A stretch of DNA of 64,000 bases. Source: Roseburia hominis. GTDB taxonomy: Bacteria > Bacillota > Clostridia > Lachnospirales > Lachnospiraceae. The stretch lies in the NCBI GenBank assembly GCA_040702975.1, contig CP159990.1, forward strand, positions 2,666,001-2,730,000, read 5' to 3'. Both the position numbers and the translations under genes were made by a program. How positions within the stretch are numbered: position 1 is the first letter of the stretch; each line of letters begins with the position of its first letter. The notes under the pieces are model-generated. The model did no database searches, was not told the origin of the DNA, and saw only the letters and a list, made by a program, of their open reading frames with translations. Shown here piece by piece: positions 15,177 to 30,444 of this stretch.

Positions 15177-16432
15177 CACGATCCCTCCTTACCGAGCTGT
15201 AATGGAAGTTTTGCGACAAAAAATATAATGTCTTTCTCCATTCTGGAATACACTACACCGCCATACCTGGCAACAAGTGCCTGAATCGATGCGATTCCTA
15301 TCCCTTCATGCCCGTTTTTTTCAGAATGTCCAATATGATAATCCTGCATTGGATTCCTGTATAACGTCCGGTTAGACACATTGATGATGCAGAACTCACC
15401 TCTCTTTAAAATCGACAATTTGATTCCATAGGATTTGTCCGGCAGCACTTCGGTCTCATCGATTGCGTTCTGCAGAAGATTTCCAATGACTTTGTTCGTC
15501 TCATATACATTCGTCACAATCTGTGACAAATCATTCTCAATATCAATCTCCATGCGAATTCCGCTCTGCGCAGCTTTGCTTTGGAAAGAGAGAATCAATG
15601 CACTTATTGCTGCATCTTCAAGAGGCAGCAGCTGATTCATGGAAATAGAATCCTTAAGCAGCTCGCCCAAATATTCTTCACACGCACCATAGTCTTTACG
15701 AAGCAAGAGCCCATGGAGCGTCTGAACATGAAAATTGTAATCGTGTCTTTGGGAACGGATTACGCTCATATAGGTCTGCATATCATCACGATACTGTTTT
15801 TCCGTAAGAAGCGTCATTTTTTCCTTACGACTTAATATTAACAGATTAATGAACTTAAGTCCACCCAAAAAAGTAAACCATTCCAACAGAAGCACAGAAA
15901 TTGAATATATGCCCGAAATGACCGGCATTGCAAGACTTAATCCATACCCGGCCAGAATCATATACAGTCCACGCATTGACTTTTTCTTTGAATCCGTATC
16001 CACGAATAACTCCTGCCAGCCTTCGTCCGGAAATTCGCCTGACATTCTGCCAAACAGCACGATTATTCCTGCCACGCCTATCACGATCAGCATCACACGG
16101 AAAAAAAGAGAAATTTCTGTCACCTGAAGCAAAGTTGCTATCGTCATCTGCAGCATTCCGAAAGCGCCGCACGCAAGCGATACGGCAGCGACCATATCAA
16201 TCGCACGTCCTCCGACCTGCATAACAATAGCAATATAGGTGATCAAAAACAGGAAGCAGATTACTCTACTCATCTGAATATTCAAATTAAGACAAACCAC
16301 TAAACCGCAGAGCATTCCCACAATACAGGAACGTATTACATTCAATCTTTTCTCAACTTTCAGCCACCAAAAAGATAAAAAACAAGAAACTGCAGCTCCA
16401 ATTCCCAGAAAAACGTAACTAACGATCAACAT
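15176..16432 (-). CDS. Sensor histidine kinase, AgrC-like (GHKL ATPase)
   Basis: This 418-residue membrane kinase has about six N-terminal hydrophobic segments (residues 1-205). The phosphoacceptor is probably His230 in SQRHDYNFH. The C-terminal GHKL ATPase domain has the N-box NLLQNAIDE and the G-box EGIGIASIQALVARYGG. This architecture is typical of peptide-sensing AgrC-type kinases that pair with LytTR regulators. No AgrD/AgrB-like pheromone genes are adjacent, so the signal is unknown. The ATG lies behind GGAGGGGAG, and the GTG one codon earlier is an alternative. It has its own promoter at 16480-16508 and heads a three-gene operon with the response regulator and the NlpC/P60 hydrolase. 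Confidence 0.9.
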   Translation of the reverse strand: MLIVSYVFLGIGAAVSCFLSFWWLKVEKRLNVIRSCIVGMLCGLVVCLNLNIQMSRVICFLFLITYIAIVMQVGGRAIDMVAAVSLACGAFGMLQMTIATLLQVTEISLFFRVMLIVIGVAGIIVLFGRMSGEFPDEGWQELFVDTDSKKKSMRGLYMILAGYGLSLAMPVISGIYSISVLLLEWFTFLGGLKFINLLILSRKEKMTLLTEKQYRDDMQTYMSVIRSQRHDYNFHVQTLHGLLLRKDYGACEEYLGELLKDSISMNQLLPLEDAAISALILSFQSKAAQSGIRMEIDIENDLSQIVTNVYETNKVIGNLLQNAIDETEVLPDKSYGIKLSILKRGEFCIINVSNRTLYRNPMQDYHIGHSEKNGHEGIGIASIQALVARYGGVVYSRMEKDIIFFVAKLPLQLGKEGS

Positions 16433-16479
16433 CACGTTCTCCCCTCCTCCATTTTGTCTCGTGATTTTAAATATTCCTT

Positions 16480-16508
16480 AGTATAGCATTCTCCTCCCCA
16501 TTTTTCAA
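16480..16508 (-). promoter_or_regulatory. Promoter of the two-component system operon
   Basis: TTGAAA (16503-16508) and TATACT (16480-16485) are 17 bp apart on the minus strand, about 50 bp before the kinase start. No CCGAATAG-type direct repeat is seen just upstream, so the operon may not use the operator found at 25.3 and 28.4 kb. Confidence 0.65.
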
Positions 16509-16511
16509 TCA

Positions 16512-16835
16512 TTACTCGTGATACAGCATCCTGGCAAGCTGTTTATGAATCAGTTCCTTGTCCATTCCTCCGACCGACTCGTGCACCAGCTTTCCGTTAT
16601 GGTAATACCGAAACGCGGGAATTCCAAAGATTTTAAACCGCCTTGCCAGACTTCTGTGGATAGACGTGTTCACCTTCAAGAATCTGATAAACGCCATGTC
16701 ATCTGCCACTTCTCTATAATACGGCGCTGTTCCTTCACATGCACCACAGTGATCTCCATAGAAATCAACCATTACATATTCCGCGCCCTGTACTAATTCA
16801 TCGTAATTCTCACTTGTCGCTTCTATTATTGCCAT
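16512..16835 (-). CDS. Thioredoxin-like protein with CGAC motif
   Basis: This 107-residue thioredoxin-fold protein has a redox motif CGAC (GDHCGACEG near residue 30) instead of the standard CGPC. The cis-proline loop is present (FGIPAFRYYHNG). With no signal peptide it is likely cytoplasmic. Replacing the proline before the second cysteine usually changes the redox potential. It starts 3 bp after the stop of the trigger-factor-like gene, behind GGAGGTGTAGAAA. The tight pairing with a chaperone-like gene and two exporters suggests a role in preparing a disulfide-containing substrate, which is inference. Confidence 0.8.
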   Translation of the reverse strand: MAIIEATSENYDELVQGAEYVMVDFYGDHCGACEGTAPYYREVADDMAFIRFLKVNTSIHRSLARRFKIFGIPAFRYYHNGKLVHESVGGMDKELIHKQLARMLYHE

Positions 16836-16838
16836 TTT

Positions 16839-17756
16839 CTACACCTCCAATAACTTTTCAGCCTCTGCCATCAGAAGAGAGAATGCGTGCTCCTGATATT
16901 TCAACATTTTGAACATATCGAGATTCGTCTGTTTCATGAGTTCTTCTTTCTTCTCGCCCCGCTCCTTAGCCATTGTCCCGATTTCAGTGATCATATCTTC
17001 CTCTGTCACTTTGAAATGATCTTTTTCACAAAAATAGCGATACATAAGGTAGGGAACAAAATACATCTCCTGTGCCTTAGCAAGCTCTTCCATCGCCTCT
17101 TCTGTTGTCATCATCGTTCCGTCCTGCCTCTTGTGCGGATCAATTCCGGCCCTCTCATATGCGTTATAAATAAGCTCCGCGCGTGTAAACATCCACGCTC
17201 TTTTTTCTTCCTCGTCAATAACAAATTCACTGCGTTCTGACATTTCTTTCAGCCAGAATTGCGAGATTATAATACATGCTTTTTCTTTGTATTCTTTGTC
17301 GTGCTGCTCATGATACCAACGGTAGTAATCCTCTACCGTATGTACTCCCGGAATATCAAGCAGCTCCACCAGACCATCACATACCTGCATCACAACCTTG
17401 CGAACGACCTTATCTACTTTGAGTGTGAGCGTAATCCCATTCAGGCTGCATGTAAACTGATCTCCTGCCTTTTTCCCGGTCACCGCCTTTTCCGCTTCTT
17501 CTGCTCCCGGAAGACTCCGTCCCGGATAGAGAAGAATACCTCGTCCACACCAGCCTTCCGTTGATGCGCAGGTGCAAACACAGCGTACGCTGTCCCCTTC
17601 CTTCACTGCTTCGTCTACTTCACTCTCACCGGAATGATCCTTGGCCAGAGCCGTAAGCTCCTCCTCAATCTCACTGTCCGGGTGACGCCATTTTCTCAGA
17701 TCCTCTGCCACATCAAGCTGCGTATAATCATAACAGCTTACCATCTTAGACTTCAT
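16839..17756 (-). CDS. Trigger-factor-like chaperone / FKBP-like protein
   Basis: The 305-residue protein looks like a diverged trigger factor. Residues about 55-130 resemble the FKBP-type domain (EGDSVRCVCTC, PGRSLPGAEEA, TGKKAGDQFTCSL). Residues 140-305 are helical like the trigger-factor C-terminal chaperone arms (VEDYYRWYHEQHDKEYKEKA and onward). The N-terminal ribosome-binding tail is missing or altered, so it is probably specialised. I use the ATG at 17756 behind AAGAAGGAGATAAC, since the longer reading frame overlaps the preceding transporter gene. It lies between the exporter pair and the thioredoxin gene. An unrelated helical protein cannot be excluded. Confidence 0.6.
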   Translation of the reverse strand: MKSKMVSCYDYTQLDVAEDLRKWRHPDSEIEEELTALAKDHSGESEVDEAVKEGDSVRCVCTCASTEGWCGRGILLYPGRSLPGAEEAEKAVTGKKAGDQFTCSLNGITLTLKVDKVVRKVVMQVCDGLVELLDIPGVHTVEDYYRWYHEQHDKEYKEKACIIISQFWLKEMSERSEFVIDEEEKRAWMFTRAELIYNAYERAGIDPHKRQDGTMMTTEEAMEELAKAQEMYFVPYLMYRYFCEKDHFKVTEEDMITEIGTMAKERGEKKEELMKQTNLDMFKMLKYQEHAFSLLMAEAEKLLEV

Positions 17757-17794
17757 GTTATCTCCTTCTTTCCACTTTTTCCTGTATTTTCCTG

Positions 17795-19510
17795 TTATTT
17801 TGCAACTCCCGCGCCTGCCTTTGCAAAGGTACGATAATATGCATTTGTACGAAGCATCTCTTCCGGCGTTCCGCACGCCTGTATCTGACCGTCACAAAGT
17901 ACGATGACCTGATCCGCAAATACGGTAGCAGAGTAATTGTGAGCAATCAATATCGTAGTACGCCCCTTCATCAGATTGCTGAGCGCTGCCGTTACCTGCT
18001 GTTCACTTTTCGCGTCCAGATTACTGGTCGCCTCATCGAGAAGCAGATAGTCCGGGTTACGCATCATGGCCCTCGCGATTGCAATACATTGCTGCTGTCC
18101 GCCAGAGAAATTAGAGCCGCCAGGTCCCACCTGGGCATCGAACTGCCCCGGCGTATTCATGACGAAATCGTAAATATTTGCCATTTTTGCAACATGAATC
18201 AATTCTTCCTCCGACACATGCCGCTCTACTCCATACAGAATATTTTCCCGAATCGTACCAGACAGAAGCGGTTTGTCCTGTGCCACGATGGCAAAGCTCT
18301 TCCTCCAGGACGAGAGTTTAAATTCTGTGATATCCTTTTCTCCAAAAAAGATCTGTCCTTCCGTCGGATCATACATACGCTCAAGCAGTTTGAACAGTGT
18401 ACTCTTTCCTGCCCCGTTCGTCCCGACAATCGCTGTAATCTTGCCCTTCGGGATTGAACAATTCAAATCGCGCAGGACTGATGCCGACTGATAAGAAAAG
18501 TTTACATGATTCAATATAATATCTGCATCTGCGACATCCAGCTCACACCCTTCTTCCCGTTCGTCCGGCACTTCCAATATATTCCCTATTTTCTTAACAA
18601 TTCCTGCATTTTTAGAGAACTCTCCAAAACTCGTACACAGCCCTGCAAATCGCATAACTACCATAGAGCAAAGTGTATAGAATCCGATCAGCTTGCCGAC
18701 AGAAATCTCTCCTGTCGCTACCATCCGGCTGCCTAATACAAAGGAAATGACAATATTCAGACAACCCACGACCTCCATACCGCCAAGCTGAATCATTGTA
18801 GTATAGCTGAGAAGTACATCTGCCTTGCACTGCTTCCGGAACAGGTCATCTGCTTTCCTGCTTTCATCTTCCTCCATGCGGAACGACTTAATAAGCCTGA
18901 GTCCCCTTACATGCTCTGCAAGATATCCCATCATAGCTGCCAGCATGGTTCTTACAGTCGCACCCGTCTTATAGGTAAGTTTACTGTAAATAATCGTAAT
19001 TCCCGCCACAACAGGGATCAGGATAAGACTCGTGAGAGCCATTTTGGACTGGAAGGAGAATAATTTCTGGAAAGCCACAATTCCCGCATAAATGGCCGTA
19101 AATATATCAATCCATACCTGGAAATAGTTCCCGGCCGCGTCTGCATCCGTTGTCACCCTTGTCACAAGCTCATTTACATTGTCCGTATCATAGTAGCTGG
19201 TAGGCAGACGCATCATCTTATCCCATGTCCGAAGCCGCACTGCGAGGTTAATTTTCTGCAACAGAAGACCTGTAGCATAAGTAAATGCAATCGTAGTAAT
19301 TCCTGCTATAAGCTGAAATTCCACATAGCGGACCAATTCATCCATCTTGACAGTATTTTTCGTTCCGTCGATGATTGAAGCCGTAAGCGTGATAGACTCC
19401 ACTTCGACATGTGACTTAATCATAGAAATCACTACCACCAGGAACAAAAGAAGCCAGGGCAGTTTCATGCCTTTAAATATCTTTGTATAATCCTTAATCT
19501 GTTTTATCAT
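17795..19510 (-). CDS. ABC transporter, fused permease and ATPase, second half of a heterodimer
   Basis: This 571-residue type IV ABC half-transporter has six membrane segments (about residues 15-310) followed by a nucleotide-binding domain. Walker A is GTNGAGKST, the Q-loop is AIVAQDKP, the signature is FSGGQQQ, Walker B is YLLLDEATSNLD and the H-loop is IAHN. All catalytic residues are present. It has no N-terminal peptidase C39 domain. Its start overlaps the end of the partner gene by 4 bp (ATGA), so the two are translationally coupled and probably form a heterodimeric exporter. The substrate is unknown. Confidence 0.92.
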   Translation of the reverse strand: MIKQIKDYTKIFKGMKLPWLLLFLVVVISMIKSHVEVESITLTASIIDGTKNTVKMDELVRYVEFQLIAGITTIAFTYATGLLLQKINLAVRLRTWDKMMRLPTSYYDTDNVNELVTRVTTDADAAGNYFQVWIDIFTAIYAGIVAFQKLFSFQSKMALTSLILIPVVAGITIIYSKLTYKTGATVRTMLAAMMGYLAEHVRGLRLIKSFRMEEDESRKADDLFRKQCKADVLLSYTTMIQLGGMEVVGCLNIVISFVLGSRMVATGEISVGKLIGFYTLCSMVVMRFAGLCTSFGEFSKNAGIVKKIGNILEVPDEREEGCELDVADADIILNHVNFSYQSASVLRDLNCSIPKGKITAIVGTNGAGKSTLFKLLERMYDPTEGQIFFGEKDITEFKLSSWRKSFAIVAQDKPLLSGTIRENILYGVERHVSEEELIHVAKMANIYDFVMNTPGQFDAQVGPGGSNFSGGQQQCIAIARAMMRNPDYLLLDEATSNLDAKSEQQVTAALSNLMKGRTTILIAHNYSATVFADQVIVLCDGQIQACGTPEEMLRTNAYYRTFAKAGAGVAK

Positions 19511-21258
19511 TGTACTGCCTCCTTTTCTGCCTGACAGGCAGCGATCAGATCCATGAAAGCCTCACAATTTCCATATAATTCCTTATAATTGCCACAGCCT
19601 GCAAGTACGCCGTTATGCAATACAACAATCTGATCCACCCTCTCAATCAGAGAAAGATCGTGCGTTACGATCAGTTTCGTTTTTCCCGGGAACATTTCAA
19701 ATATCATATCCTGTACCATTTTGGAAGCTGCCGCATCCAGCGCGGAGGTCGGTTCATCAAAGAGCAGAATATCCGTACCTCTCATCAATTCTCTGGTCAA
19801 CACCAGCTTCTGTTTCTGACCTCCCGACATAGACGTTCCTCCCGGTGCAACCGGCGTATCAAGACCCTTTTCCCATTTTCTCAGGATATCAGCAAAGCCG
19901 GATTTTTCTGCCGCTTCCCATATCTCCTGATCGGGCACTTCCCGGTGAAGCCCATAGGTAAGCGCCTCTCTTGCCGTGCCGCTGAAAATGTCGGCACCCT
20001 GTTGAACATACCCCATAGCTCCGCGCAGCTTTGCAAGCGGAACCTCTGTCACAGGTACGCCTCCCAATGTCACCCGGCCTTCTTGCGCCTCATAAAAGTG
20101 TTCAAGAAGACTGATGGAAGTCGTCTTACCACTCCCGCACAGTCCGATTATCGCAGTAGAACTGCCTTCCGGAATGGAAAATGATATATCCTGAAGCGCC
20201 TTCTTATCCCCGTAAGAGAACGATACATTTTCAAATACAATAGAAGTATCTTTCGGCTCTTTTCCACCGGAGAGTATCTCCTTTTCCTCCGGCGCTTTCA
20301 GAAGCTGTGCCGTTCTCACCAAGGTACCCTGAATCATTTTAAGATTAGTCCAGTATCCAATCAGATTATCAAACGATGTAGAAAGTGTAGCGGAAAACAT
20401 ATAAAATGCAACCCACTGCTGGATCGTAATGTCCCCCCGCTTAAGAAGTACGACTCCAAAGACCATGACCGTCATCGTCTGAAGCATTCCTATAAGTGTA
20501 GCCAATGCAGTTATCACACACTGTAATTTATTTACACGCATATTAGCATTGAACAATTTGTGTGCAGCCTGTTCTCCGTTTTTTAATTCATTTTTTTCAT
20601 TTGTGTAGGTCTTGATCAGGCTCAGACTTCTGACACGTTCTGCAAGGTAAGCAGTAAGACCCCCGATCTCTTTAAATACTCCGTACTGTGTCTTATACTT
20701 CCACCGCCCGATCACTATGGTATACACGATTTTGACAGGGAGAAGTAAAAATATAGAAACCATTAACCATACATTATAGGAAGATATGGTTTTAAGCGCT
20801 GTCAGTACATAATAAATTGTGGGCAGGAATCCCACTAAAAACTCTACCAGCAATTGTGCTGCCGTTGTAGCATCATTGGTCAACACACTCATCATATCAG
20901 AGGGATTGTGGCTGTCATAATAATCCATTCGGATATGAAGCATCTTATCCCATACCACACGCCGCACATTTCGCGCCGCAATATGACGTGCCGGAGAACG
21001 GAGCGCCACATCCGCGCACAAAACGATTGTAAAAATCACATAAAACCAAATCGCATCAAACAGCACCTTGCTGTCCGTACTTCCGCTCATAAGTCCTGCT
21101 GAAACCGTAGGCAGAACCAGCATCACTCTGTTATAGCCAAAATTACAAAGAAAAGCGATGATGATCCAAATCCATGGCAAATGTATTTTTTTCAAAAGAT
21201 TCCAAAAATCACGCCAATTCCCCTTGCCTGATTCTTCTCTTTTTACTCTCTTATCCAC
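19507..21258 (-). CDS. ABC transporter, fused permease and ATPase, first half of a heterodimer
   Basis: This 583-residue half-transporter has six membrane segments (about residues 30-320) and an intact ATPase. Walker A is GLCGSGKTT, the Q-loop is GYVQQGADIF, the signature is MSGGQKQ, Walker B is ILLFDEPTSALD and the H-loop is THD. The start is GTG, 8 nt after AAAGGAG. It lies 41 bp beyond the terminator that follows the lipoprotein gene. I could not find a clear promoter, so expression may depend on readthrough. It overlaps the next half-transporter by 4 bp and is followed by the chaperone-like and thioredoxin genes. Confidence 0.92.
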   Translation of the reverse strand: MDKRVKREESGKGNWRDFWNLLKKIHLPWIWIIIAFLCNFGYNRVMLVLPTVSAGLMSGSTDSKVLFDAIWFYVIFTIVLCADVALRSPARHIAARNVRRVVWDKMLHIRMDYYDSHNPSDMMSVLTNDATTAAQLLVEFLVGFLPTIYYVLTALKTISSYNVWLMVSIFLLLPVKIVYTIVIGRWKYKTQYGVFKEIGGLTAYLAERVRSLSLIKTYTNEKNELKNGEQAAHKLFNANMRVNKLQCVITALATLIGMLQTMTVMVFGVVLLKRGDITIQQWVAFYMFSATLSTSFDNLIGYWTNLKMIQGTLVRTAQLLKAPEEKEILSGGKEPKDTSIVFENVSFSYGDKKALQDISFSIPEGSSTAIIGLCGSGKTTSISLLEHFYEAQEGRVTLGGVPVTEVPLAKLRGAMGYVQQGADIFSGTAREALTYGLHREVPDQEIWEAAEKSGFADILRKWEKGLDTPVAPGGTSMSGGQKQKLVLTRELMRGTDILLFDEPTSALDAAASKMVQDMIFEMFPGKTKLIVTHDLSLIERVDQIVVLHNGVLAGCGNYKELYGNCEAFMDLIAACQAEKEAVQ

Positions 21259-21298
21259 AATAGAATCTCCTTTCGGATTTATTACCTGTTTTTATGCT

Positions 21299-21336
21299 AT
21301 AAAAAAGCGGCAGACAGCTATCTACAGTCTGCCGCT
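21299..21336 (-). terminator. Terminator after the lipoprotein gene
   Basis: GCGGCAGAC and GTCTGCCGC form a perfect 9-bp stem with an 11-nt loop, followed by six T on the minus strand. Confidence 0.9.
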
Positions 21337-21346
21337 CTCACGCCGC

Positions 21347-21886
21347 CTAATACTCTGTCAGGCCATTATAGCTTTTCATCATCTCTACGTAAGCTTCCAA
21401 TGTCTCTTCTGACAGGGTGCCGCCTGCTGCAAAAGCAGCAATTGCAGCCTCCACAGTATCCCCTTCCGAAACGGCATAAACGATAGTTCCTTCCTGCATG
21501 ACATTCTGTCCCTGGGAACTATAAAACTCAGCCAGATCCGCTGCTGATGTCTCGTCCGGAGCAATAAAGTAATTGTATTCTGCTACTGGTTTTCCGTCCT
21601 TTCCATACATAATGTCATAGACCTTTGTCGCTGTGTATCCAAAACCCTTCATGTCGGACAGAAGTTTACAGCTCTCATCCCCTACCAAAACATATCTTTG
21701 GTTAAAATCCAGATCTTCCGGATCTTTATAAGTAAAACTATCAGTCATTTCGATGCTGAAATCTTTGTCAATCTCTGCTGTATCATTTTCCTTGGAGGAA
21801 TCCTTGCTTCCTTTGTCCGAACCGCAGCCGACAAGCGCTGCCCCCAACATGATACACATGATAATAGAAACCAGTTTCTTTCCCAT
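21347..21886 (-). CDS. Lipoprotein with a single copy of the surface repeat domain
   Basis: This 179-residue lipoprotein has a signal peptide with lipobox LVGC (Cys21) and a charged linker. It carries one ~130-residue domain (about 43-179) that also occurs in several copies in the neighbouring large protein. The shared features are TDSFTYKDPEDLDFNQRYVL, GDESC, a YDIMYGKDGKPVAEY strand, and a C-terminal LEAYVEMMKSYNGLTEY helix. I know of no named family for this domain. The gene begins 1 bp after the stop of the large protein and shares its transcript, ending in a strong terminator. Confidence 0.8.
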   Translation of the reverse strand: MGKKLVSIIMCIMLGAALVGCGSDKGSKDSSKENDTAEIDKDFSIEMTDSFTYKDPEDLDFNQRYVLVGDESCKLLSDMKGFGYTATKVYDIMYGKDGKPVAEYNYFIAPDETSAADLAEFYSSQGQNVMQEGTIVYAVSEGDTVEAAIAAFAAGGTLSEETLEAYVEMMKSYNGLTEY

Positions 21887-21887
21887 A

Positions 21888-24800
21888 TTACTTTTCTCCT
21901 TCTTTCATTTCAGTAAGCGTACAGCTTTCTTTTAAAAATTTACAGTAACCCTCCGGCTTTGCCTCATATGCCTTTTCCATATCCGGCAAACTGGTGATCA
22001 GCGCATCTAAATCTTCCTTTTTCGTCTCCTCACAGGTCACCTTATCCTCTGAGACAATACAACGATACTCTTTTACAACTTTATCATCTTTTACATAGAA
22101 GATAACATATACATCGGACACTTTTATTTTCTTATCCGCAGAAATCTGCTGTGCCAGTTTGCTGTCTTCCTCTCCGCGATACACATAACGTTTTTCATAT
22201 TCCAGATCTTCAGGATCCGTATAAGTATAGTCTGCCGTAATCTGGATCGCGGTCTCAGCCTCTTCCGGAACTTCCTGTACTTCCGATTCCTCTGTCACAA
22301 CACCTGCCTCAGAAGGATCAAGTTCCTCTTCTTCTGGAACACTGATGCTCTCGTCCACAGAATTCTTCTCTGTCACTGTAGTATCCGCTGCATTTTCCGG
22401 CATATTCTCCGGCACAGTCCCTGCTTCTTCCGGCTCCGCAGTCTCTGTAACATCCTTGCCTTTCTCCACGGTTCCTGCCTCAGAAGGATTAAGTTCTTCT
22501 TTCGAAGTATCCGGAGCAACCGGAGTAGCTACAGCCTCCTTAGGCTCTGTTTCTTCTACCGTTCCTGCCACGGAAGGATCAAAACTTTCATTTTCAGATT
22601 CACTTTCTGCTTCCGTATTGACTTTCGCCTCTTCATCAGCCTTCATCAATACGACCTTTTCTGTGCCACTCTCCTGATTCTTGATTCCCGTATCATGCAA
22701 TACGTATCCTACATTGTGTGTCAGCGAGAAATCATCCAGATCATGGAAGGTTCCTTCCTCAGTCATCTTGAGTTCCGCCATCTCTATCATAGCAGAAACC
22801 GTCTCATCTTTCACGACTTCTTTCATACCAGCCGCTATAAACAATCCGTTCAGATAGGCTTCCGGAGTCGCCTCGTCAAACCAGCCGGCCTCGACTAATC
22901 CGTTGATTGTATCCTGTGCTGTGCTATTGATCACAAGCGCCATATTGGTATTCGGCATTGCTACCGCATACATTCCTGATTCCACCATCTGCTGCGCCAG
23001 GGCTGCTGCTTTTTCACTATCCGCCATAACGTACGCTTTGATTTCGTTCAGTGCTTTCCCGTCCGCTGCATACAGAATCTCATAGAAACCATCCGCCTGA
23101 CATTCCTGCGCATAGCCGCAGCTTGAATCTCCGTAGAGTACATAACGGGTATCGTACTTAAATGACGGTGGCAGAATCTGCGTCTCGTCAAATGTATAGC
23201 TGTCGCTCATCTTGATTGTAAACTGTTCTTCCTGGGGTACTCCCGTAAGTCCGCTTACAGGCGGAACCGGCGGTTCTTCCTGCTTCTCGACTTCCGTCAT
23301 TCCAACCGCTACGAACAATCCGTTCAAATACGCTTCCGGGGTCGCCTCACTGAGCCAGCCGTCTTTCGCATATCCTTCAATCGTCTCCTGAATAGCGCTG
23401 TTTATCACAAGTACCGTATTTGTATCTGGCATTGCAACCGCATACATTCCGGTTCCGGTCAACTGTTCCGCCAGGGACGCTGCCTTTTCACTATCCGGCA
23501 TCACATACGCTTTGATTTCGTTCAGCGCTTTCCCGTCCGCTGCATACAGAATCTCATAGAAACCATCCGCCTGACATGCCTGCGCATAGCCGCAGCTTGA
23601 ATCTCCGTAGAGTGCATAACGGGTATCGTACTTAAATGACGGTGGCAGAATCTGCGTCTCGTCAAATGTATAGCTGTCGCTCATCTTAATCGTGAACTGC
23701 TCTTCCTGGGTTACTCCCTTGAGTTCGTTTACAGGCGGAGCCGGTGGATTCGGTGGATTCGGTGTATCCTGCTCCGGATCAGGATTCTTAAAGAACTTAA
23801 AGTTTTCCTGCTTTACCATTGCCTCCATATAACCTTGCGGAGTAGCGTCCTTACTATATCCAGCCTGCGCATAATATGTAATCATTTGCTTCACAAGGTC
23901 CACATTCATATTGAGGCATGCAACCCTTCCTGATACCGAAACTTCTCCCATACCTCCAAAGGCATTTTTCACCTGCCCTGCATCTGCCTCGCTTTTTGCG
24001 TCATATATACGGTAAACTCCGACCAGCTCTCCGTCTTTCAAATAGTAGATATCATATGCGCCTTTTATCTCGCATCCACTCTGACCTGCTGCCACAGCAG
24101 CTCCGCAGTCTGAACCGCCATACATGACATAACGCTCATCATAGTCTAATCCTTTGGGGTCATTAAACGTATACTTATCCGTCACCTTTACCGGGAAAGT
24201 ACTCTTTACTGTTGCCTTCGCTTTCGTGATATCCTCAGTCAACTGTTCAGCCGTAACACTGATACTCTTCTCACCTGAATCAACCGGAGGGTTATCCGGG
24301 TTACTCGGCGTATCCGGATTACTTGGTGTGTTCGGATTACTTGGTGTACCCGGATTGCTCGGCGTACTCGGATTACTCGGTGTACCCGGATTGCTTGGTG
24401 TGCCCGGATTACTCGGCGTATTTGTGTTTCCGGAGCTGGAAGATGGTTTATATTCGCTCATTCCACCGAAATAGAATGCCATTCCCAGATATGCCTGTGG
24501 AGTTGCCGACTTGATTACTCCACCTTTATAATAAGTGTTAATCGAAGTCTGCACATAACTTCCCGAAGAGTACACATATACAACATCGCCCCACACTCCG
24601 CAGGTTAAATCGGTTCCTTTCAAAGATGCTGCATATTTGTTGGCATCCGCCTCGCTTGACATGACATAGCACACATATTCGCCCATTGCCTGTCCACCTT
24701 TAGCATAGAGAACCACATAGGCTTCCTTACAGGTATATCCCGCACGTTTTGCCCGTTTTGCCGGCATACAGTCAGAACCCCCATGAAGGACGTACCTTGT

Positions 24801-25178
24801 ATCAAAGCTGATTCCGGACGGATCGGAGAAGGTGCAGAGGTTGCTCATCTTAATACTAAAGCTGCTACTTGCACTGGTACCGCCGACACTGGCTCCGCCA
24901 TTATCGACATAGCCATTACTGGTCGGCGTTGCCCCATTCTCTCCTGCTTTACTCGGGTCCACACCGTCATCCTTATTCTTCCCTGCCGCATCTGCGTCTA
25001 TATCGTCAGTCGTCTTATCTTCATCCTTTTTATCCCTGTCTTTATCGTTAGAAGACAATACCTGATCGACTACTTCCTCAAGGCCGCCCTTTCTGGAAAA
25101 GAGATAGCCGCCTGCAATACCGATACACACAATAAGTGCAGCTATCCCTCCGATAATTAATTTTTTCTTTTTGCTCAT
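21888..25178 (-). CDS. Large membrane-anchored protein with about six copies of an unrecognised ~130-residue domain
   Basis: This is a 1096-residue protein. A basic start (MSKKKK) and one membrane segment (about 6-27) make it an N-terminally anchored surface protein. Domain copies lie at about residues 107-243, 328-463, 495-630, 653-788, 798-846 (truncated) and 977-1092. Each opens with a motif like YTFxDPxxLxYDxRYVLYG followed by an S-x-C or S-x-K position, and most close with TPEAYL-like helices. Linkers are a TPSNPG proline repeat (about 254-295) and acidic stretches with recurrent DPSxAGTV. I use the ATG behind AAGGAGTGTGAGAGC. Its promoter carries a LytTR-type operator, and it is co-transcribed with the lipoprotein. 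Binding or sensing is plausible but unproven. Confidence 0.8.
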   Translation of the reverse strand: MSKKKKLIIGGIAALIVCIGIAGGYLFSRKGGLEEVVDQVLSSNDKDRDKKDEDKTTDDIDADAAGKNKDDGVDPSKAGENGATPTSNGYVDNGGASVGGTSASSSFSIKMSNLCTFSDPSGISFDTRYVLHGGSDCMPAKRAKRAGYTCKEAYVVLYAKGGQAMGEYVCYVMSSEADANKYAASLKGTDLTCGVWGDVVYVYSSGSYVQTSINTYYKGGVIKSATPQAYLGMAFYFGGMSEYKPSSSSGNTNTPSNPGTPSNPGTPSNPSTPSNPGTPSNPNTPSNPDTPSNPDNPPVDSGEKSISVTAEQLTEDITKAKATVKSTFPVKVTDKYTFNDPKGLDYDERYVMYGGSDCGAAVAAGQSGCEIKGAYDIYYLKDGELVGVYRIYDAKSEADAGQVKNAFGGMGEVSVSGRVACLNMNVDLVKQMITYYAQAGYSKDATPQGYMEAMVKQENFKFFKNPDPEQDTPNPPNPPAPPVNELKGVTQEEQFTIKMSDSYTFDETQILPPSFKYDTRYALYGDSSCGYAQACQADGFYEILYAADGKALNEIKAYVMPDSEKAASLAEQLTGTGMYAVAMPDTNTVLVINSAIQETIEGYAKDGWLSEATPEAYLNGLFVAVGMTEVEKQEEPPVPPVSGLTGVPQEEQFTIKMSDSYTFDETQILPPSFKYDTRYVLYGDSSCGYAQECQADGFYEILYAADGKALNEIKAYVMADSEKAAALAQQMVESGMYAVAMPNTNMALVINSTAQDTINGLVEAGWFDEATPEAYLNGLFIAAGMKEVVKDETVSAMIEMAELKMTEEGTFHDLDDFSLTHNVGYVLHDTGIKNQESGTEKVVLMKADEEAKVNTEAESESENESFDPSVAGTVEETEPKEAVATPVAPDTSKEELNPSEAGTVEKGKDVTETAEPEEAGTVPENMPENAADTTVTEKNSVDESISVPEEEELDPSEAGVVTEESEVQEVPEEAETAIQITADYTYTDPEDLEYEKRYVYRGEEDSKLAQQISADKKIKVSDVYVIFYVKDDKVVKEYRCIVSEDKVTCEETKKEDLDALITSLPDMEKAYEAKPEGYCKFLKESCTLTEMKEGEK
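22815..23696 (-). repeat. Recent intragenic duplication of one surface-domain copy
   Basis: Domain copies three (23289-23696) and four (22815-23222) encode nearly the same first 70 residues. The DNA of 23038-23240 and 23513-23715 differs at only a few positions, with lower identity toward the domain ends. This points to recent duplication or gene conversion. Confidence 0.85.
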
Positions 25179-25285
25179 GCTCTCACACTCCTTAGATGCA
25201 GATTTCATCTTTCTCTGTATATTTCATGCCCGTAAAAATCATAAAACATCCTAAAAATGTCTAAAATCCGCATATTATTTTCATA

Positions 25286-25315
25286 ACAATAGCATACAGA
25301 GAGTTTCTTTCTCAA
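25286..25315 (-). promoter_or_regulatory. Promoter of the surface-protein operon
   Basis: TTGAGA (25310-25315) and TATTGT (25286-25291) are 18 bp apart on the minus strand. The -35 box lies exactly 10 bp from the direct-repeat operator at 25326-25355, the same spacing as in the M16C protease promoter. Confidence 0.6.
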
Positions 25316-25325
25316 TATTGTTTGC

Positions 25326-25355
25326 CTATTCGGAAGATTTCGGCGTCTATTCGGC
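25326..25355 (-). promoter_or_regulatory. Predicted LytTR operator before the surface-protein operon
   Basis: Two 9-bp direct repeats on the minus strand, GCCGAATAG and TCCGAATAG, have a 21-bp period (12-bp gap). They end 10 bp upstream of the -35 box. The layout fits LytTR activators such as AgrA. Confidence 0.6.
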
Positions 25356-25405
25356 ATTTTTCGCCTATCACCCCCTTGATTTTCTTTTTCACTGTCGAAA
25401 CTTGT

Positions 25406-28324
25406 CTACAGATATTCAATCTGATCAAATGTAGCTTCCACAGCCTCCAGAGAAGCTTTACCTCCTATCAAACATACGCCGGCCTTTTCACAGATTGCAT
25501 CGAGAATTTCCGCAATTTGGACCAACTCTGCTTTTGTCGTGTGCAAAATTTCTTTTCGCTCTCTTCTCCTCATATCATCTGTCATACCACTCAGATAATC
25601 CTCAGCGGAGCGAATTCCTTTCTGTCGCACGCTCAAAAGAGGTTCTGTTGAAGCAATCGCACTGATCACGTATCGGTCTAATGGTTCCTCACTTTCACAC
25701 AAGCCTCTCAGAGCCGCTCCAGCCCCATCAAAGCTCTTCAGTGAATTAGCCGCATTTGGATCACGGAATGTCAGGAACATAACATCTCCACTATCCGAAA
25801 CACTAAGCCCGGTCCCGTATGCTCCTCCCTTGACACGGATCACATTCCACAGGTATCCATAGCTTAATATTCTCGCTGCCACCCGCATTGCTCCATGATA
25901 ATGTGCACCACATATTTTAAGGTTTGCACCCTTCCCTGCAAATCCGATTTCGGCAGGAATACGAATTCCCCGCTTGCTCACTGCCGACGTCTGATAGTTT
26001 ACCGCTGCCTGCATAGAACCCGTTCCTTCCGGTAAAAAGCAGAGCAGTTTATTGAGCCATTTTTGTGAAAGTTCTCCTGTCACACTTATAAATGCCCGCT
26101 CTCTCACAAAAATCCTCCTGCGCAGTTCCTCCAGATTTTGAAGGAGCCTCTCACCTTCCCGCTCAAAATCATTGTCCATTTTTTGTACCCAGCGAAGCAT
26201 CTCTATTCCTTCAAATGCTTCCCGCACAGCGCCGCGCGCCGAAAACTGGGCCGCTATCATCTGAGCCGCGTACCGGTTTCCAGACATCACAATATTTTGT
26301 TCCATCGCAACCCTAAGCTGACGCAGTCTGTTACGAATATAGCTTAAATTGTTAAATTTTGAACCATTCAATATTTCATCTATCAGCCCTATCGCTTCTT
26401 CTATTTTCTCCTCAAGAACGGAAACACTGATCACCAGATACGGCCTGCATTTTTTCGTATCCTCCGGTTCGGAAAACACATCCACGTAAGCACGGAAACG
26501 TCCCAGACGGCCTTCCAGTTCTGTCTGAAGTTCCAGCGCACTGTAATGCTTTGTATCTGTCTGTCCGAGGAGCATGCGCAAAAAGGAAGTCCGGCACAGT
26601 TCCTCCGGGTTCTGGTCTTCCAGAGAAAAATAATAACTAATATGTACGATTCCTTCCGTATCAAGCTTCTGGATCAGAACCCGGGTTCCTCCAAGCTCTG
26701 TTACGCTTCTCGGAATTTCTTCGATCTCTTCAGTAATGTCGGACAGCTCCAATACCGGAAGTGCCGCGATCTTTTCCGGACTGTCCGGCGTTTCCTGTAC
26801 CTCTCTTAAATGGCAAAGTGCACCGATCACCTGCTCTCTTTTCTCTGCGGTCCACTGCTCCTTCACAGATTCAAGCCTTGCCCTCTCACGCTCCCTTTTT
26901 TCCTTTCCCAGCGTGACAGATGGACGAAGGATAAGACGTGCATGGTGTGGATTGTCAAGAAACACCTCTCTTAGAAGCTGCTCAAAATATCCGGTTTCTA
27001 CCGATTCTCTCAGTGAAGCAAACAGTGCGGCGTGGCTCAGATTCTGCGCAGGGTCTCCTCCATACAGACAGCTATTCAATATCTGCAGCGCATTCATGAC
27101 TCCTTCCGGGAATCCGGCTGTCTCCTTCTCCCGCATATTGAATTCCATGCGATTCAGTATAGCGCCGATTCTCTTATGATCCAGCCCCGCAGCCGCCAGG
27201 TTTTTTAAAGTCATCTCTACGGTATTCCAGATTTCTTCTTTTCTTTCGTCTTCTGTATTTCGTATCACCAGTTTTAGGTAAGGCTGCTGGATTCCGTCTA
27301 TTTTCTCTAATTCTACATTTTCAGCCAGGCCTTTTTCCAGAAGCGCTCTCTTTAACGGCGATTCATTTGTGGAGCAGAGTATCTCAGCAAGCACAGAACA
27401 AGCGATATCCTTCTTTGGCTCATCATATCTCCCATATATCCAGCCCTCTGCCAGAAGTGTTTTCTTCCGGGTCTCTTCTGTTTCCCCCACTTCATAAAAG
27501 CCCTGATCTTCCTCTAAAGCTACACTCTTCTGCAATTTAATCTCACTGTCTACATCCTGGTAGTCAAATTCCCGAATCGCCTCATCAATCTTTGTAAGTA
27601 CCGCTTCCAAATCCATATCCCCGTCAAGTATCATATAAGAATTAGAAGGGTGATAGAACCGTTTATAGTTTGCCACATAGCTCTCATAGGTCAGTTCTGT
27701 GATATGTTCCGGATCGCCGCCTGACTGAAAGCGATAACAGTTATCAGGAAACAAACGGCGGTTCAGCCTGCTTTCTATGATAGTATCCGGCGATGCATAG
27801 ACACCTTTCATCTCGTTATATACGACACCGTTTAAGCGCAGTTCCCCCTCCGGCTGCTCCAATTCATAATGCCAGCCTTCCTGCCGGAAAATCTCTTCTT
27901 TCGTGACACATAAGGGGTGCAGTACCGCATCCAGATATACAGACATCAGATTCAGCAAATCCTTCTGGTTGCGGCTGCATATCGGATACAGCGTCTTGTC
28001 CGGGAAAGTAAACGCATTCATAAAGGTCTGGAGCGAGCTCTTAATCATTTCCACAAATGGCTTACTCACCGGATATTTTTCCGAACCGCACAGAAGAGAA
28101 TGCTCCAAAATGTGAAATACTCCCGTATCATCACCCGGAAGTGTCTTAAACGCAATCGCAAAGGTCTTATTCTCTTCCCGTCTTTTCAACCAAAACAATT
28201 TTGCACCATTCTTTTTATAATGCATCTGATAGAAAACGGCTTTCATCTCCGGGAGCTCTTTTACCTCCTCCAGCACGAATCCCTTTTCTATTACTACCTT
28301 CTCCACATCCTGCCTCTTGTTCAT
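25406..28324 (-). CDS. M16C-family zinc metalloprotease (insulinase/presequence-protease type)
   Basis: This 972-residue protein has the length and layout of M16C peptidases: two roughly 450-residue halves that form a closed chamber and degrade peptides. The inverted zinc motif HILEH (HxxEH, about residues 70-74) is intact, and the downstream metal-ligand region (YNEMKGVYASPDT) is present. No signal peptide is seen, so it is probably cytoplasmic. Its promoter has the same LytTR-type operator and spacing as the surface-protein operon just downstream, which suggests coordinated expression. The ATG follows AGGGGTAGGCTG. Its stop lies about 50 bp before that second operator. Confidence 0.9.
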   Translation of the reverse strand: MNKRQDVEKVVIEKGFVLEEVKELPEMKAVFYQMHYKKNGAKLFWLKRREENKTFAIAFKTLPGDDTGVFHILEHSLLCGSEKYPVSKPFVEMIKSSLQTFMNAFTFPDKTLYPICSRNQKDLLNLMSVYLDAVLHPLCVTKEEIFRQEGWHYELEQPEGELRLNGVVYNEMKGVYASPDTIIESRLNRRLFPDNCYRFQSGGDPEHITELTYESYVANYKRFYHPSNSYMILDGDMDLEAVLTKIDEAIREFDYQDVDSEIKLQKSVALEEDQGFYEVGETEETRKKTLLAEGWIYGRYDEPKKDIACSVLAEILCSTNESPLKRALLEKGLAENVELEKIDGIQQPYLKLVIRNTEDERKEEIWNTVEMTLKNLAAAGLDHKRIGAILNRMEFNMREKETAGFPEGVMNALQILNSCLYGGDPAQNLSHAALFASLRESVETGYFEQLLREVFLDNPHHARLILRPSVTLGKEKRERERARLESVKEQWTAEKREQVIGALCHLREVQETPDSPEKIAALPVLELSDITEEIEEIPRSVTELGGTRVLIQKLDTEGIVHISYYFSLEDQNPEELCRTSFLRMLLGQTDTKHYSALELQTELEGRLGRFRAYVDVFSEPEDTKKCRPYLVISVSVLEEKIEEAIGLIDEILNGSKFNNLSYIRNRLRQLRVAMEQNIVMSGNRYAAQMIAAQFSARGAVREAFEGIEMLRWVQKMDNDFEREGERLLQNLEELRRRIFVRERAFISVTGELSQKWLNKLLCFLPEGTGSMQAAVNYQTSAVSKRGIRIPAEIGFAGKGANLKICGAHYHGAMRVAARILSYGYLWNVIRVKGGAYGTGLSVSDSGDVMFLTFRDPNAANSLKSFDGAGAALRGLCESEEPLDRYVISAIASTEPLLSVRQKGIRSAEDYLSGMTDDMRRRERKEILHTTKAELVQIAEILDAICEKAGVCLIGGKASLEAVEATFDQIEYL

Positions 28325-28408
28325 CAGCCTACCCCTTTTTCAAATTTCATTCTTAACTTTTACTTTACCTGTCATTTGACATTTTTCGATATTTTTAAAA
28401 CCTCTTTA

Positions 28409-28437
28409 AGAATAAAAAAAGAATAGACAACCGTCAA
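28409..28437 (-). promoter_or_regulatory. Promoter of the M16C protease gene
   Basis: TTGACG (28432-28437) and TATTCT (28409-28414) are 17 bp apart on the minus strand. The -35 box lies 10 bp from the operator at 28448. The promoter overlaps the cmk terminator hairpin. Confidence 0.6.
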
Positions 28438-28453
28438 TATCGGTTGCCTATTC
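28413..28453 (-). terminator. Terminator of cmk
   Basis: GAATAGGCAACCG and CGGTTGTCTATTC form a 13-bp stem with one mismatch and a short loop, followed by seven T on the minus strand. One operator half-site and the -35 box of the protease promoter lie within the same stem. Confidence 0.8.
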
Positions 28454-28477
28454 GGCAATAGCAGATGACTATTCAGC
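28448..28477 (-). promoter_or_regulatory. Predicted LytTR operator before the M16C protease gene
   Basis: Direct repeats GCTGAATAG and GCCGAATAG on the minus strand have a 21-bp period and end 10 bp before the -35 box. They match the operator at 25326-25355 in sequence and spacing, including a shared GCAAMCRATA between operator and -35. Confidence 0.6.
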
Positions 28478-28483
28478 AATATA

Positions 28484-29140
28484 TTAATTAAGAAATCCAC
28501 ATATTTTATCCACGACCTCATCAATCGTCATATCAGAGCTATCAATCAGATGTGCGTCCTCTGCCTGCTTAAGAGGCGCAATCTCACGATTCATGTCCCT
28601 TGCGTCCCTCTCCTCAATATCTTTTGCAATTTCCTCAAGATCACAGGAAATCCCTTTTTCTGTCAATTCCTTATATCTTCTGTTCGCACGGCACTCTACA
28701 CTCGCCGTCAGATAAATCTTCACATCGGCATTTGGAAGTACATGCGTCCCAATGTCTCTTCCATCCATGACCACATCCTTCTCCTGCGCCAGATTCCGCT
28801 GCAGATCCAGCAGCTTTGCTCGCACTGCCGGCACCGCGGAACTCATGGAAGCCATATTTCCCACAGCCTCCTCTCTTAACATGGACGTGACATTCTCGCC
28901 GTTCAGATAAATCTGCTGAACTCCGTCCTCATATCCGATGGTGACCTTCGCATCCGCGCAGGCCGCAGCAATCTTCTTAGTCTCCTCCGGGCAAATTCCC
29001 TTCTTGATAAAATGAATGGCCATTCCCCGGTACATCGCGCCGGTATCCACATAAATATATCCTTTTTTCTTTGCCACCAGCTTTGCTATCGTGCTTTTTC
29101 CGGCGCCAGCCGGTCCGTCGATCGCGATATTATATCCCAT
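28484..29140 (-). CDS. cmk: Cytidylate kinase
   Basis: This 218-residue nucleoside monophosphate kinase starts MGYNIAIDGPAGAGKSTIAK, with the Walker A loop GPAGAGKS. It keeps the CMP-binding features DTGAMYRG and GRDIGTHVLPNADVKIYLTA and the lid RANRRYKEL. It phosphorylates CMP and dCMP. I start at the ATG behind AGGAGGAAATAGAT, because a longer frame would overlap the previous gene. It follows the HI0933-type flavoprotein closely and ends in a strong terminator. Confidence 0.96.
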   Translation of the reverse strand: MGYNIAIDGPAGAGKSTIAKLVAKKKGYIYVDTGAMYRGMAIHFIKKGICPEETKKIAAACADAKVTIGYEDGVQQIYLNGENVTSMLREEAVGNMASMSSAVPAVRAKLLDLQRNLAQEKDVVMDGRDIGTHVLPNADVKIYLTASVECRANRRYKELTEKGISCDLEEIAKDIEERDARDMNREIAPLKQAEDAHLIDSSDMTIDEVVDKICGFLN

Positions 29141-29169
29141 ATCTATTTCCTCCTGTCCTGATTTTCCAT

Positions 29170-30444
29170 CTACCAAATACTCTCTCCCGCAGCACAGCCC
29201 GTAGACCAGGCGATCTGCAGATTGAATCCTCCGGTGAGCGCATCTACGTCCAGCACCTCTCCTGCAAAATACACGCCGGCCACCAATTTTGACTGCATGG
29301 TAGAGGGATCAATCTCCCCTACCTTCACCCCGCCGCGCGTGATAATAGCTTCTTTATAATCGCGAAGACCTGTAACCGTGAATTCAAAATTTTTGATCAA
29401 ATGGACGAACGCAAGCCGCTCTTCCCTGGATATCACGTTCACTTTTTTCTCCGGGTCAATCCCGCTTTGCTTTACCATCACCGGAATCAATTTGGCCGGA
29501 AACAATGCATTTACCGCATTTTTAAACTGTTTGTTATGATTTTTCTCAAATTCACGAAGCACCCTCGCATCAAGCTGCTCTTCGGTGAGCGCCGGCTTTA
29601 AGTCTATCGCCAGGCGAAGCTGCTTTTTTCCCTTTAGTTTTTTTCCAACATAAGCGCTGGCACTGATAATGATCGGGCCGCTCACCCCGAAGTGGGTGAA
29701 CAGCATCTCCCCAAATTCGGAATACAATTCCTTCTTGCCGTCATAGATAGCCGCCCTCACATTTCTAAGGGACAAGCCCATCAGCTCCCTCGCGTCTCCT
29801 TCCCTGACCTCCATCGGCACGAGGGAAGGCGACAGCTCCGTAACCGTATGCCCTAGTTCTCTCGCGAACCCGTAACCATCGCCCGTGGAGCCCGTCGTGG
29901 GATAGGAAAGTCCTCCCGTTGCCACGATGCAGCAGTCCCCATTTACGATCGTCCCGTCCGCCAGCTCCAGATGCGAAAATACCAACTGCGCACGCTTTCC
30001 GCTTCCGGCCTCCTCCATGTCTTTCGCCGGATACGCAGCCACTTTCTTCACGGTGGTATACAGATGCACCTCCACTTTCTGAGTTCTCAGCTCCGCCTCC
30101 AATGCCTTTATGACATCTGAGGAATGGTCGGAAACGGGAAATACCCTCATTCCCCTCTCAACCTTCAGTTTCAGGCCAAGCTGTTCAAAAAATTCCATCA
30201 CGTCCTGATTGCTGAACCCATAAAAACTGCTGTACATGAATTTCCCATTGGAGACCATAGCTGACAAAAGTTCTTCCATATCGCAGGCATTGGTTACATT
30301 ACAGCGCCCCTTGCCTGTGATAAATAATTTTTTGCCCAGCTTTTCATTCTTTTCGTAAATATGAACTTCATTTCCATTGCGCGCCGCGAAAATGGCAGCG
30401 CACATTCCGGCGGCACCGCCGCCTACTACTAAAACTTTACTCAT
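29170..30444 (-). CDS. HI0933-family FAD-dependent oxidoreductase (YhiN-like)
   Basis: This 424-residue flavoprotein has an N-terminal dinucleotide-binding motif (VLVVGGGAAGMCAAIFAARN). Family motifs GKKLFITGKGRCNVTN near residue 37 and the C-terminal TGGFNLQIAWSTGCAAGESI are also present, matching HI0933/YhiN. The physiological substrate of this family is not settled. It is cytoplasmic. It lies between the RpiR regulator (23 bp upstream) and cmk (start 29 bp downstream of its stop) and is probably co-transcribed with both. Confidence 0.9.
   Translation of the reverse strand: MSKVLVVGGGAAGMCAAIFAARNGNEVHIYEKNEKLGKKLFITGKGRCNVTNACDMEELLSAMVSNGKFMYSSFYGFSNQDVMEFFEQLGLKLKVERGMRVFPVSDHSSDVIKALEAELRTQKVEVHLYTTVKKVAAYPAKDMEEAGSGKRAQLVFSHLELADGTIVNGDCCIVATGGLSYPTTGSTGDGYGFARELGHTVTELSPSLVPMEVREGDARELMGLSLRNVRAAIYDGKKELYSEFGEMLFTHFGVSGPIIISASAYVGKKLKGKKQLRLAIDLKPALTEEQLDARVLREFEKNHNKQFKNAVNALFPAKLIPVMVKQSGIDPEKKVNVISREERLAFVHLIKNFEFTVTGLRDYKEAIITRGGVKVGEIDPSTMQSKLVAGVYFAGEVLDVDALTGGFNLQIAWSTGCAAGESIW

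Follow-up and report, generated by a model that had tools for sequence, protein, structure and literature searches.

The stretch of DNA analysed here (the window) comprises 64,000 nucleotides of Roseburia hominis (assembly GCA_040702975.1, contig CP159990.1, positions 2,666,001 to 2,730,000) and carries two promoter regions, site 1 and site 2, in which a pair of 9-bp direct repeats stands in front of the -35 box. The source genome (G000) consists of 4,257,935 bases in one contig. The genes in question are all encoded by the minus strand, in the order cmk (28484-29176), site 2, a gene for an M16C protease, site 1, and then the genes from a putative surface protein through to a LytTR response regulator. 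Read on this strand, site 1 runs from 25355 down to 25286 as GCCGAATAG-N12-TCCGAATAG-N10-TTGAGA-N18-TATTGT, and site 2 from 28477 down to 28409 as GCTGAATAG-N12-GCCGAATAG-N10-TTGACG-N17-TATTCT. The distal and proximal half-sites of site 1 thus occupy 25347-25355 and 25326-25334, its -35 box 25310-25315 (10 bp past the proximal repeat) and its -10 box, which has TGC in front (extended -10), 25286-25291. The corresponding elements of site 2 are found at 28469-28477 (distal half-site), 28448-28456 (proximal half-site), 28432-28437 (-35 box) and, past a run of T residues and with a 17-bp spacer, 28409-28414 (-10 box). An earlier note, made from the letters alone, had described two direct repeats of the form [GT]C[CT]GAATAG with a 21-bp period at both promoters, followed after 10 bp by TTGAGA or TTGACG and 17-18 bp further on by a -10 box. 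Coordinates and period were borne out on the minus strand, as were the gap and the boxes at both sites. A promoter scan of the region also listed both -35/-10 pairs; it returned 11 promoter-like sites against a mean of 11.9 in shuffled sequences, so that the boxes alone prove nothing.

The first gene past site 1 (21888-25208) encodes the putative surface protein, 1106 aa long with an N-terminal hydrophobic stretch and TPSNPG-type linkers, for which we obtained no Pfam hit at 1e-3 and a single NCBIfam hit far under the cut-off. It is followed by a gene for a 179-aa protein (21347-21886), which showed no family in the Pfam and NCBIfam scans and has 30% identity, a weak similarity, to a repeat at residues 114-256 of the surface protein. 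Next come two ATP-binding cassette (ABC) exporter half-transporters, recognised in both scans (17795-21258; 19507-21258 and 17795-19510), a trigger-factor-related protein (16839-17876; NCBIfam 1.7e-10, below cut-off, and alignment; no Pfam hit) and a thioredoxin-like protein (16512-16835; NCBIfam 4.8e-20, below cut-off). A histidine kinase with a GHKL-type ATPase domain (15176-16435; Pfam HATPase_c_5 4.1e-11, SPOB_a 6.4e-7) matched the NCBIfam models DcuS/MalK (2.2e-13) and AgrC (7e-6), both below cut-off. The last gene, at 14412-15179, confirms the LytTR regulator that had been announced for the window (Pfam LytTR 6.1e-19, Response_reg 5.1e-18). Its receiver domain, LytTR domain and partner kinase make it a two-component LytTR response regulator, and receiver domain and kinase set it apart from the LytTR Regulatory Systems discussed below; a PDB search with the regulator returned mainly receiver domains. 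Between the surface-protein gene and the regulator gene no intergenic gap exceeds 88 bases and several genes overlap, and a terminator scan listed none in the gaps between 25208 and 14412. This arrangement suggests a single operon that starts at site 1 and includes the regulator gene, and that may continue to an NlpC/P60 gene at 12535 (gap of 26).

The gene for the M16C (PreP-like) protease (25406-28324; Pfam M16C_assoc 1.6e-51, PreP_C 9.8e-32) lies between the two sites and would be driven from site 2. A second M16C gene, at C1:1578009-1580897 of the same genome, encodes a protein 34% identical to that of the window; it is probably a housekeeping copy, because such a copy, at 34-36% identity, is present in all eight genomes of the genus.

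Uniqueness and conservation of the two sites

Within the window, the repeats taken by themselves carry little weight: single 9-mers were not enriched (12 found, 13.7 expected), and the two matches to the paired pattern at up to three mismatches were equalled in 13 of 100 shuffles. Across the whole 4.26-Mb genome, CTATTCNG-N13-CTATTCNG had exactly two exact matches, namely the two promoters. At up to two mismatches we counted 37 matches against 53 for the backward control, so that there was no excess besides the two exact sites. The remaining matches comprised one at one mismatch (L003) and 34 at two mismatches. L003 was considered as a third site and rejected, as no promoter-like layout was seen around it by eye. 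Repeats with a 21-base period (CTCTTCCGCCGCC-like), at C1:3298730-3298800, 3961002 and 3590676, mimic the operator period and give spurious pattern matches.

We next compared the locus in the four genomes found to hold it: that of the window, G001 and G006 from the same genus, and G293 from another genus of the same family. In G006 the locus is split over several contigs. G001 is a metagenome-assembled genome of a relative named Coprococcus sp. (contig JAAWDY010000067.1, family Lachnospiraceae), and its locus was the only one that a protein search of the collection of named genomes returned. The regulators of the relatives that have this locus are 65-70% identical to that of the window. At site 1, GAAATCTTCCGAATAG is invariant in all four genomes: the proximal half-site is identical throughout, the extended -10 TGCTA is kept, the distal half-site is the same in G293 and reads TCCAAATGG in G001 and G006, and the -35 box is TTGAGA, TTGGGA or TTGGGG. 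At site 2, the spacing is constant, TTGACG is invariant and a -10 box is present in all four (TATTCT in three, TATCTT in G293), and the half-sites are variable, with GCAGATTAA in G001 and G006 and GCAAAATAG in G293 at the distal position and GCCAAACAG and GCCAAACGA, respectively, at the proximal one. In G293, site 2 precedes four genes on the same strand, of which the first encodes a pyridine nucleotide-disulphide oxidoreductase and the last the M16C protease. As G001 and G006 are alike at 44 and 42 of 46 bases, the number of independent lines is closer to three than to four.

The two sites of G000 resemble each other to an unusual degree. They agree at 31 of 46 bases, against 17, 21 and 22 in G001, G006 and G293, and site 2 of G000 is as similar to site 1 as it is to its own orthologues (29-32). 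Together with the shuffle result within the window, this likeness could be taken to mean that the repeats arose by chance, or by recent copying of one promoter onto the other, and have no regulatory meaning. We consider such an origin hardly credible. Chance was set aside on the genome-wide and comparative searches, given that the exact matches are unique in the genome and that both places are conserved in four genomes, and outside G000 each site is clearly closer to its orthologues than to the other site, which speaks against copying. What the comparison indicates is that the near-identity of the two sites is partly special to G000, through convergence or local copying, since agreement elsewhere is so much lower, and that the layout is general.

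Loss of the operator in relatives that lack the two-component system, which the earlier note had named as support, was looked at in part. Among the eight genomes of the genus, three (G002, G005 and G007) lack a close regulator, their best matches being 25-27% identical, and possess a single M16C gene each; G002 and G007 are free of sites at up to two mismatches, and G005 has one two-mismatch match. A search of G005 for the trigger-factor-like gene of a more distant version of the locus, described below, found none. In all, the genus search at this threshold, which is too strict for the degenerate sites of G001 and G006, returned five matches (the two G000 sites, G003, G004 and the one in G005) and four for the control. 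A scan of the genus for a half-site plus the -35 box recovered known sites in four of eight matches, and the other four all lay in G001.

A terminator-like hairpin within site 2

The earlier note had overlooked that site 2 lies within a hairpin of 13 pairs followed by a run of T residues, which at sequence level has the two marks of an intrinsic terminator, a stable hairpin and then a T-run. On the minus strand the element reads GAATAGGCAACCG-ATATTGA-CGGTTGTCTATTC followed by T7 (28453-28414), with the hairpin at 28421-28453, the loop ATATTGA and the T-run at 28420-28414. Six of the nine bases of the proximal half-site are also part of the 5' arm of the hairpin, and the -35 box starts in its loop. 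The predicted fold, with 12 of the 13 pairs, has an energy of -15 kcal/mol (z -6.65). When the four genomes are aligned, 94.2% of the cells are paired; the three unpaired ones among 52 are in G001 and G006. Five of the 13 pairs are changed on both sides, against 1.4 expected in shuffles, and none of 500 shuffles reached five. Four sequences are a small sample, each double change is confined to one of them, and a C-C mismatch is present in G006. Further pair types were not above the shuffles (9 against 8.5; 248 of 500), and sliding the partner strand abolished the pairing.

Could site 2, then, be a mere terminator of the upstream cmk gene, its likeness to site 1 a coincidence and site 1 the sole operator? 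The 13-pair hairpin with its T7 does come right past the cmk stop codon, the distal repeats of site 2 are poor in the relatives, and the agreement between the two sites in those genomes is low, as given above. We nevertheless regard this as very unlikely, since the element stays with the M16C-containing operon as its upstream neighbour changes, and since the 21-bp period, the N10 gap, TTGACG and a -10 box are all kept at site 2. Indeed, the gene upstream of the element is cmk in G000, a Band 7 gene in G001 and a divergent open reading frame in G006; in G293, the upstream stretch, near the contig end, holds one unidentified open reading frame on the same strand. Given its covariation across the four genomes and the exchange of the gene upstream of it, the hairpin seems to belong to the protease operon. 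Transcription starting just past the -10 box would leave the hairpin outside the protease transcript, so that it could act only on transcripts coming from upstream, and it may thus insulate the protease operon from upstream transcription.

The pattern in related loci and other genera

The set of genes found here (two ABC half-exporters, a trigger-factor-like protein, a thioredoxin, a LytTR regulator and often an M16C protease) recurs in the family in about three subtypes and in ten or more genomes, at 14412-28324 of the window and at loci L061, L112, L113, L130 and L163-L171. A literature search on the gene set retrieved no description of such a locus by title. A distant form is present in six genomes (G003, G004, G307, G323, G411 and G039). 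In G003, whose regulator is 25% identical to that of the window and has a LytTR domain by Pfam, CAGAATAG-N13-CAGAATAG-N10-TTGA stands without mismatch ahead of an operon of trigger-factor-like, thioredoxin and M16C genes, and G004 has a repeat pair of the same type at the same place with one mismatch. In both genomes the pair lies between the regulator gene and this operon, with TATAAT 16 bp past N10-TTGA. In addition, a lone half-site, ACAGAATAG or a variant with one change, stands 10 bp before TTGT upstream of the first operon in G323, G039, G411 and G003; these half-sites were spotted by eye afterwards, and the G307 contig begins too late to tell. The G003 regulator (L112, 5290-6054) has N where the receiver of the window regulator has the phospho-accepting D, its receiver domain is below the Pfam cut-off and its neighbourhood showed no kinase gene; this regulator may not be switched by phosphorylation. 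In a scan for other near-identical 9-bp repeats that covered L167-L169, L171 and L172, from the set of six related stretches L167-L172 that lack the site, and some other gaps, L167, L169, L171 and L172 gave none. Repeat matches in L168 lie in a gap that lacks a clear -35 box, and A/T-rich matches in L164-L166, which overlap promoters, were not taken as operators.

When the full pattern with N10-TTGA was searched in 397 genomes of the family at up to one mismatch, 11 matches appeared in six genomes, five of them exact. They are grouped, with four in G174, two in G374 and two in G000, whereas the control never gave more than one per genome; one further match, in G293, occupies the orthologous position. 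Ten of the 11 are followed by a -10 box of at least 4/6 (best of spacings 16, 17 and 18), which the pattern does not demand. The exception is the match in G352 (2/6), which we treated as chance. Without the -35 box, the search gave nine matches in four of these genomes, against one for the control. In G174 and G374, which represent two other genera, the pattern lies directly before LytTR-DUF3021 operons (L126, position 4185, and L129, position 6589), and in G368 (L131) it is ahead of two LytTR genes and DUF3021 that likely form an operon. In the former two genomes it also precedes genes for large putative surface proteins of 3489 aa (with BspA-type repeats), 3080 aa and 833 aa, as well as a pair encoding a 242-aa protein and a hybrid kinase (G174: L125, positions 13341 and 16275, and L127, position 12078; G374: L128, position 8731). 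This is perhaps a separate LytTR surface-protein regulon in these two genera; at the sites on contigs C18 of G174 and C155 of G374, around the 3080-aa and 833-aa proteins, there was no LytTR gene among seven scanned open reading frames. A second match in G368, with one mismatch, is at L184 1613-1643, and the nearest open reading frame on the same strand starts about 565 bases on. Taken over all loci, the pattern is linked to a LytTR gene in the putative site 1 operon described here and also in G293, G174, G374, G368 and G003.

This distribution bears on the question of which protein binds the repeats. The sites could be LytTR operators bound by another LytTR regulator, such as that of a LytTR-DUF3021 pair at about 479970-480890 of the source genome, or by a different regulator altogether, with the neighbouring regulator having other targets. 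G000 has many response regulators, several of which match over the LytTR part, and one LytTR-DUF3021 pair, and in G174, G374 and G368 the pattern accompanies LytTR-DUF3021 genes; the DNA-binding parts encoded there share only 25-30% identity with that of the window regulator. Against this, the LytTR-DUF3021 pair of G000 has no operator nearby at up to two mismatches in the genome-wide search, a scan there for 9-bp repeats that are nearly identical and spaced 20-22 bp showed no operator-like pair, and the sites accompany the locus's own regulator in the four genomes of this type and in two of six of the distant type. A different binder is thus unlikely in our view, if less so than the two explanations dismissed above.

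A candidate LytTR regulon and its known counterparts

The reading that best accounts for these observations, to which we assign a probability of roughly 0.8, is that a LytTR operator controls two adjacent operons and feeds back on its own regulator. As the earlier note had surmised, the sites look like LytTR operators: geometry and position are as published, the pattern recurs with the locus in four genomes, with the distant LytTR locus in two of six, and with LytTR-DUF3021 operons in two other genera. The small regulon joining a surface protein and a protease, likewise foreseen, looks local in G000 by these patterns and would consist of the surface-protein, exporter and sensor operon plus the protease operon. 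Most likely this is a real and new LytTR regulon; a literature search joining LytTR, Lachnospiraceae and regulon found no paper, and among the results of another, made with the half-site letters, the 20 of 73 that were covered were off topic by title.

Several results weigh against this view. In the family-wide search the raw excess is small (11 matches in six genomes, against seven in seven for the control), and within the genus the half-site pattern gave eight matches against five. Distal half-sites are degenerate in G001, in G006 and at site 2 of G293. Four of the six genomes with the distant form do not have the full operator, and the two open reading frames overlap where it would lie. A related exporter locus, on six stretches from five genomes (G359 twice, G264, G277, G019 and G082), has no site, and at least three of these stretches hold a LytTR regulator; this gene set thus does not always carry the operator. 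The classical LytTR half-site consensus is [TA][AC][CA]GTTN[AG][TA], from which xCCGAATAG differs at positions 5-6; relative to the broad LytTR consensus, the CC and TA positions agree and the core GAA differs. The half-site also departs from most of the LytTR Regulatory System sites shown in PMC6193735, which have a CTT-type core; the letters GAATAG do not occur in the main text of that paper.

If the LytTR operator reading is correct, both sites would be operators of the response regulator at 14412-15179, with two regulator subunits on the two 9-bp repeats of each site, on one face of the DNA (the 21-bp period being about two turns). Bound 10 bp upstream of a weak promoter, the regulator would help RNA polymerase to start, acting as an activator rather than a repressor. 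Site 1 would drive the surface protein, the 179-aa protein, the two ABC half-exporters, the trigger-factor-like and thioredoxin proteins, the sensor kinase and the regulator itself, and site 2 the M16C protease. Because the LytTR gene sits in the operon that appears to begin at site 1, the circuit is likely a positive feedback loop. The overlapping terminator at site 2 would stop read-through from upstream, and the protease would be made from the regulated promoter only.

What is most novel in this arrangement is that operator, promoter and terminator overlap, and searches of the literature with narrow phrases for overlapping terminators and promoters found nothing. We tentatively go one step further and propose, as a possibility that we would not yet favour, that site 2 is a conserved compound switch. 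One LytTR half-site would overlap the 5' arm of the terminator and the -35 box its loop, and selection would keep operator, promoter and hairpin together within 70 bp, closing the protease operon to upstream transcription and leaving it to be opened only by the regulator; in the same proposal, one operator alphabet would be common to two-component LytTR regulators and lone LytTR-DUF3021 regulators across genera of the family. The site would then be a natural example in which operator and promoter may be built into a terminator. More broadly, the locus supplies, for a two-component system of the Lachnospiraceae, an operator, a regulator and a set of targets that can be tested, and would tie the gene set of exporter, trigger-factor-like protein, thioredoxin and M16C protease to one signal.

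Among the known systems, ComE is a two-component LytTR regulator, and AgrC is a GHKL kinase. The LytTR Regulatory Systems (HdrRM and BrsRM of Streptococcus mutans and relatives) use direct repeats of 9 bp, in most cases separated by 12 bp, and show a very marked preference for a position 10 bp before the -35 box; sequence conservation of the repeats between systems is low (PMC6193735). Both of our sites share this layout of two 9-bp repeats, N12 and N10 to the -35 box, the last being the commonest spacing in the published set. Many half-sites in the text of that paper likewise begin with xCC and have TA near the end; the core here is GAA and not of the CTT type. The likeness extends to probable autoregulation of the regulator's own operon, positive autoregulation having been shown for HdrR (PMC6193735). 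Those systems pair a lone LytTR protein with a membrane inhibitor, whereas the window has a response regulator with a kinase; it is the LytTR-DUF3021 operons of G174 and G374, with the same operator, that have the gene make-up of the published type. In possessing a regulator with receiver and LytTR domains and a kinase, direct repeats upstream of promoters and the regulator gene inside a target operon, our locus resembles those of ComE and of AgrA, which binds two direct repeats upstream of P2 and P3 (PMC4227749). It differs from both in that no peptide precursor or AgrB-like gene was among the ten proteins scanned, small open reading frames lying outside the scan, and in its predicted targets, which comprise a surface protein, a pair of ABC exporter proteins accompanied by trigger-factor-like and thioredoxin proteins, and an M16C protease. 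The switch is thus of a known kind, and its targets here look new.

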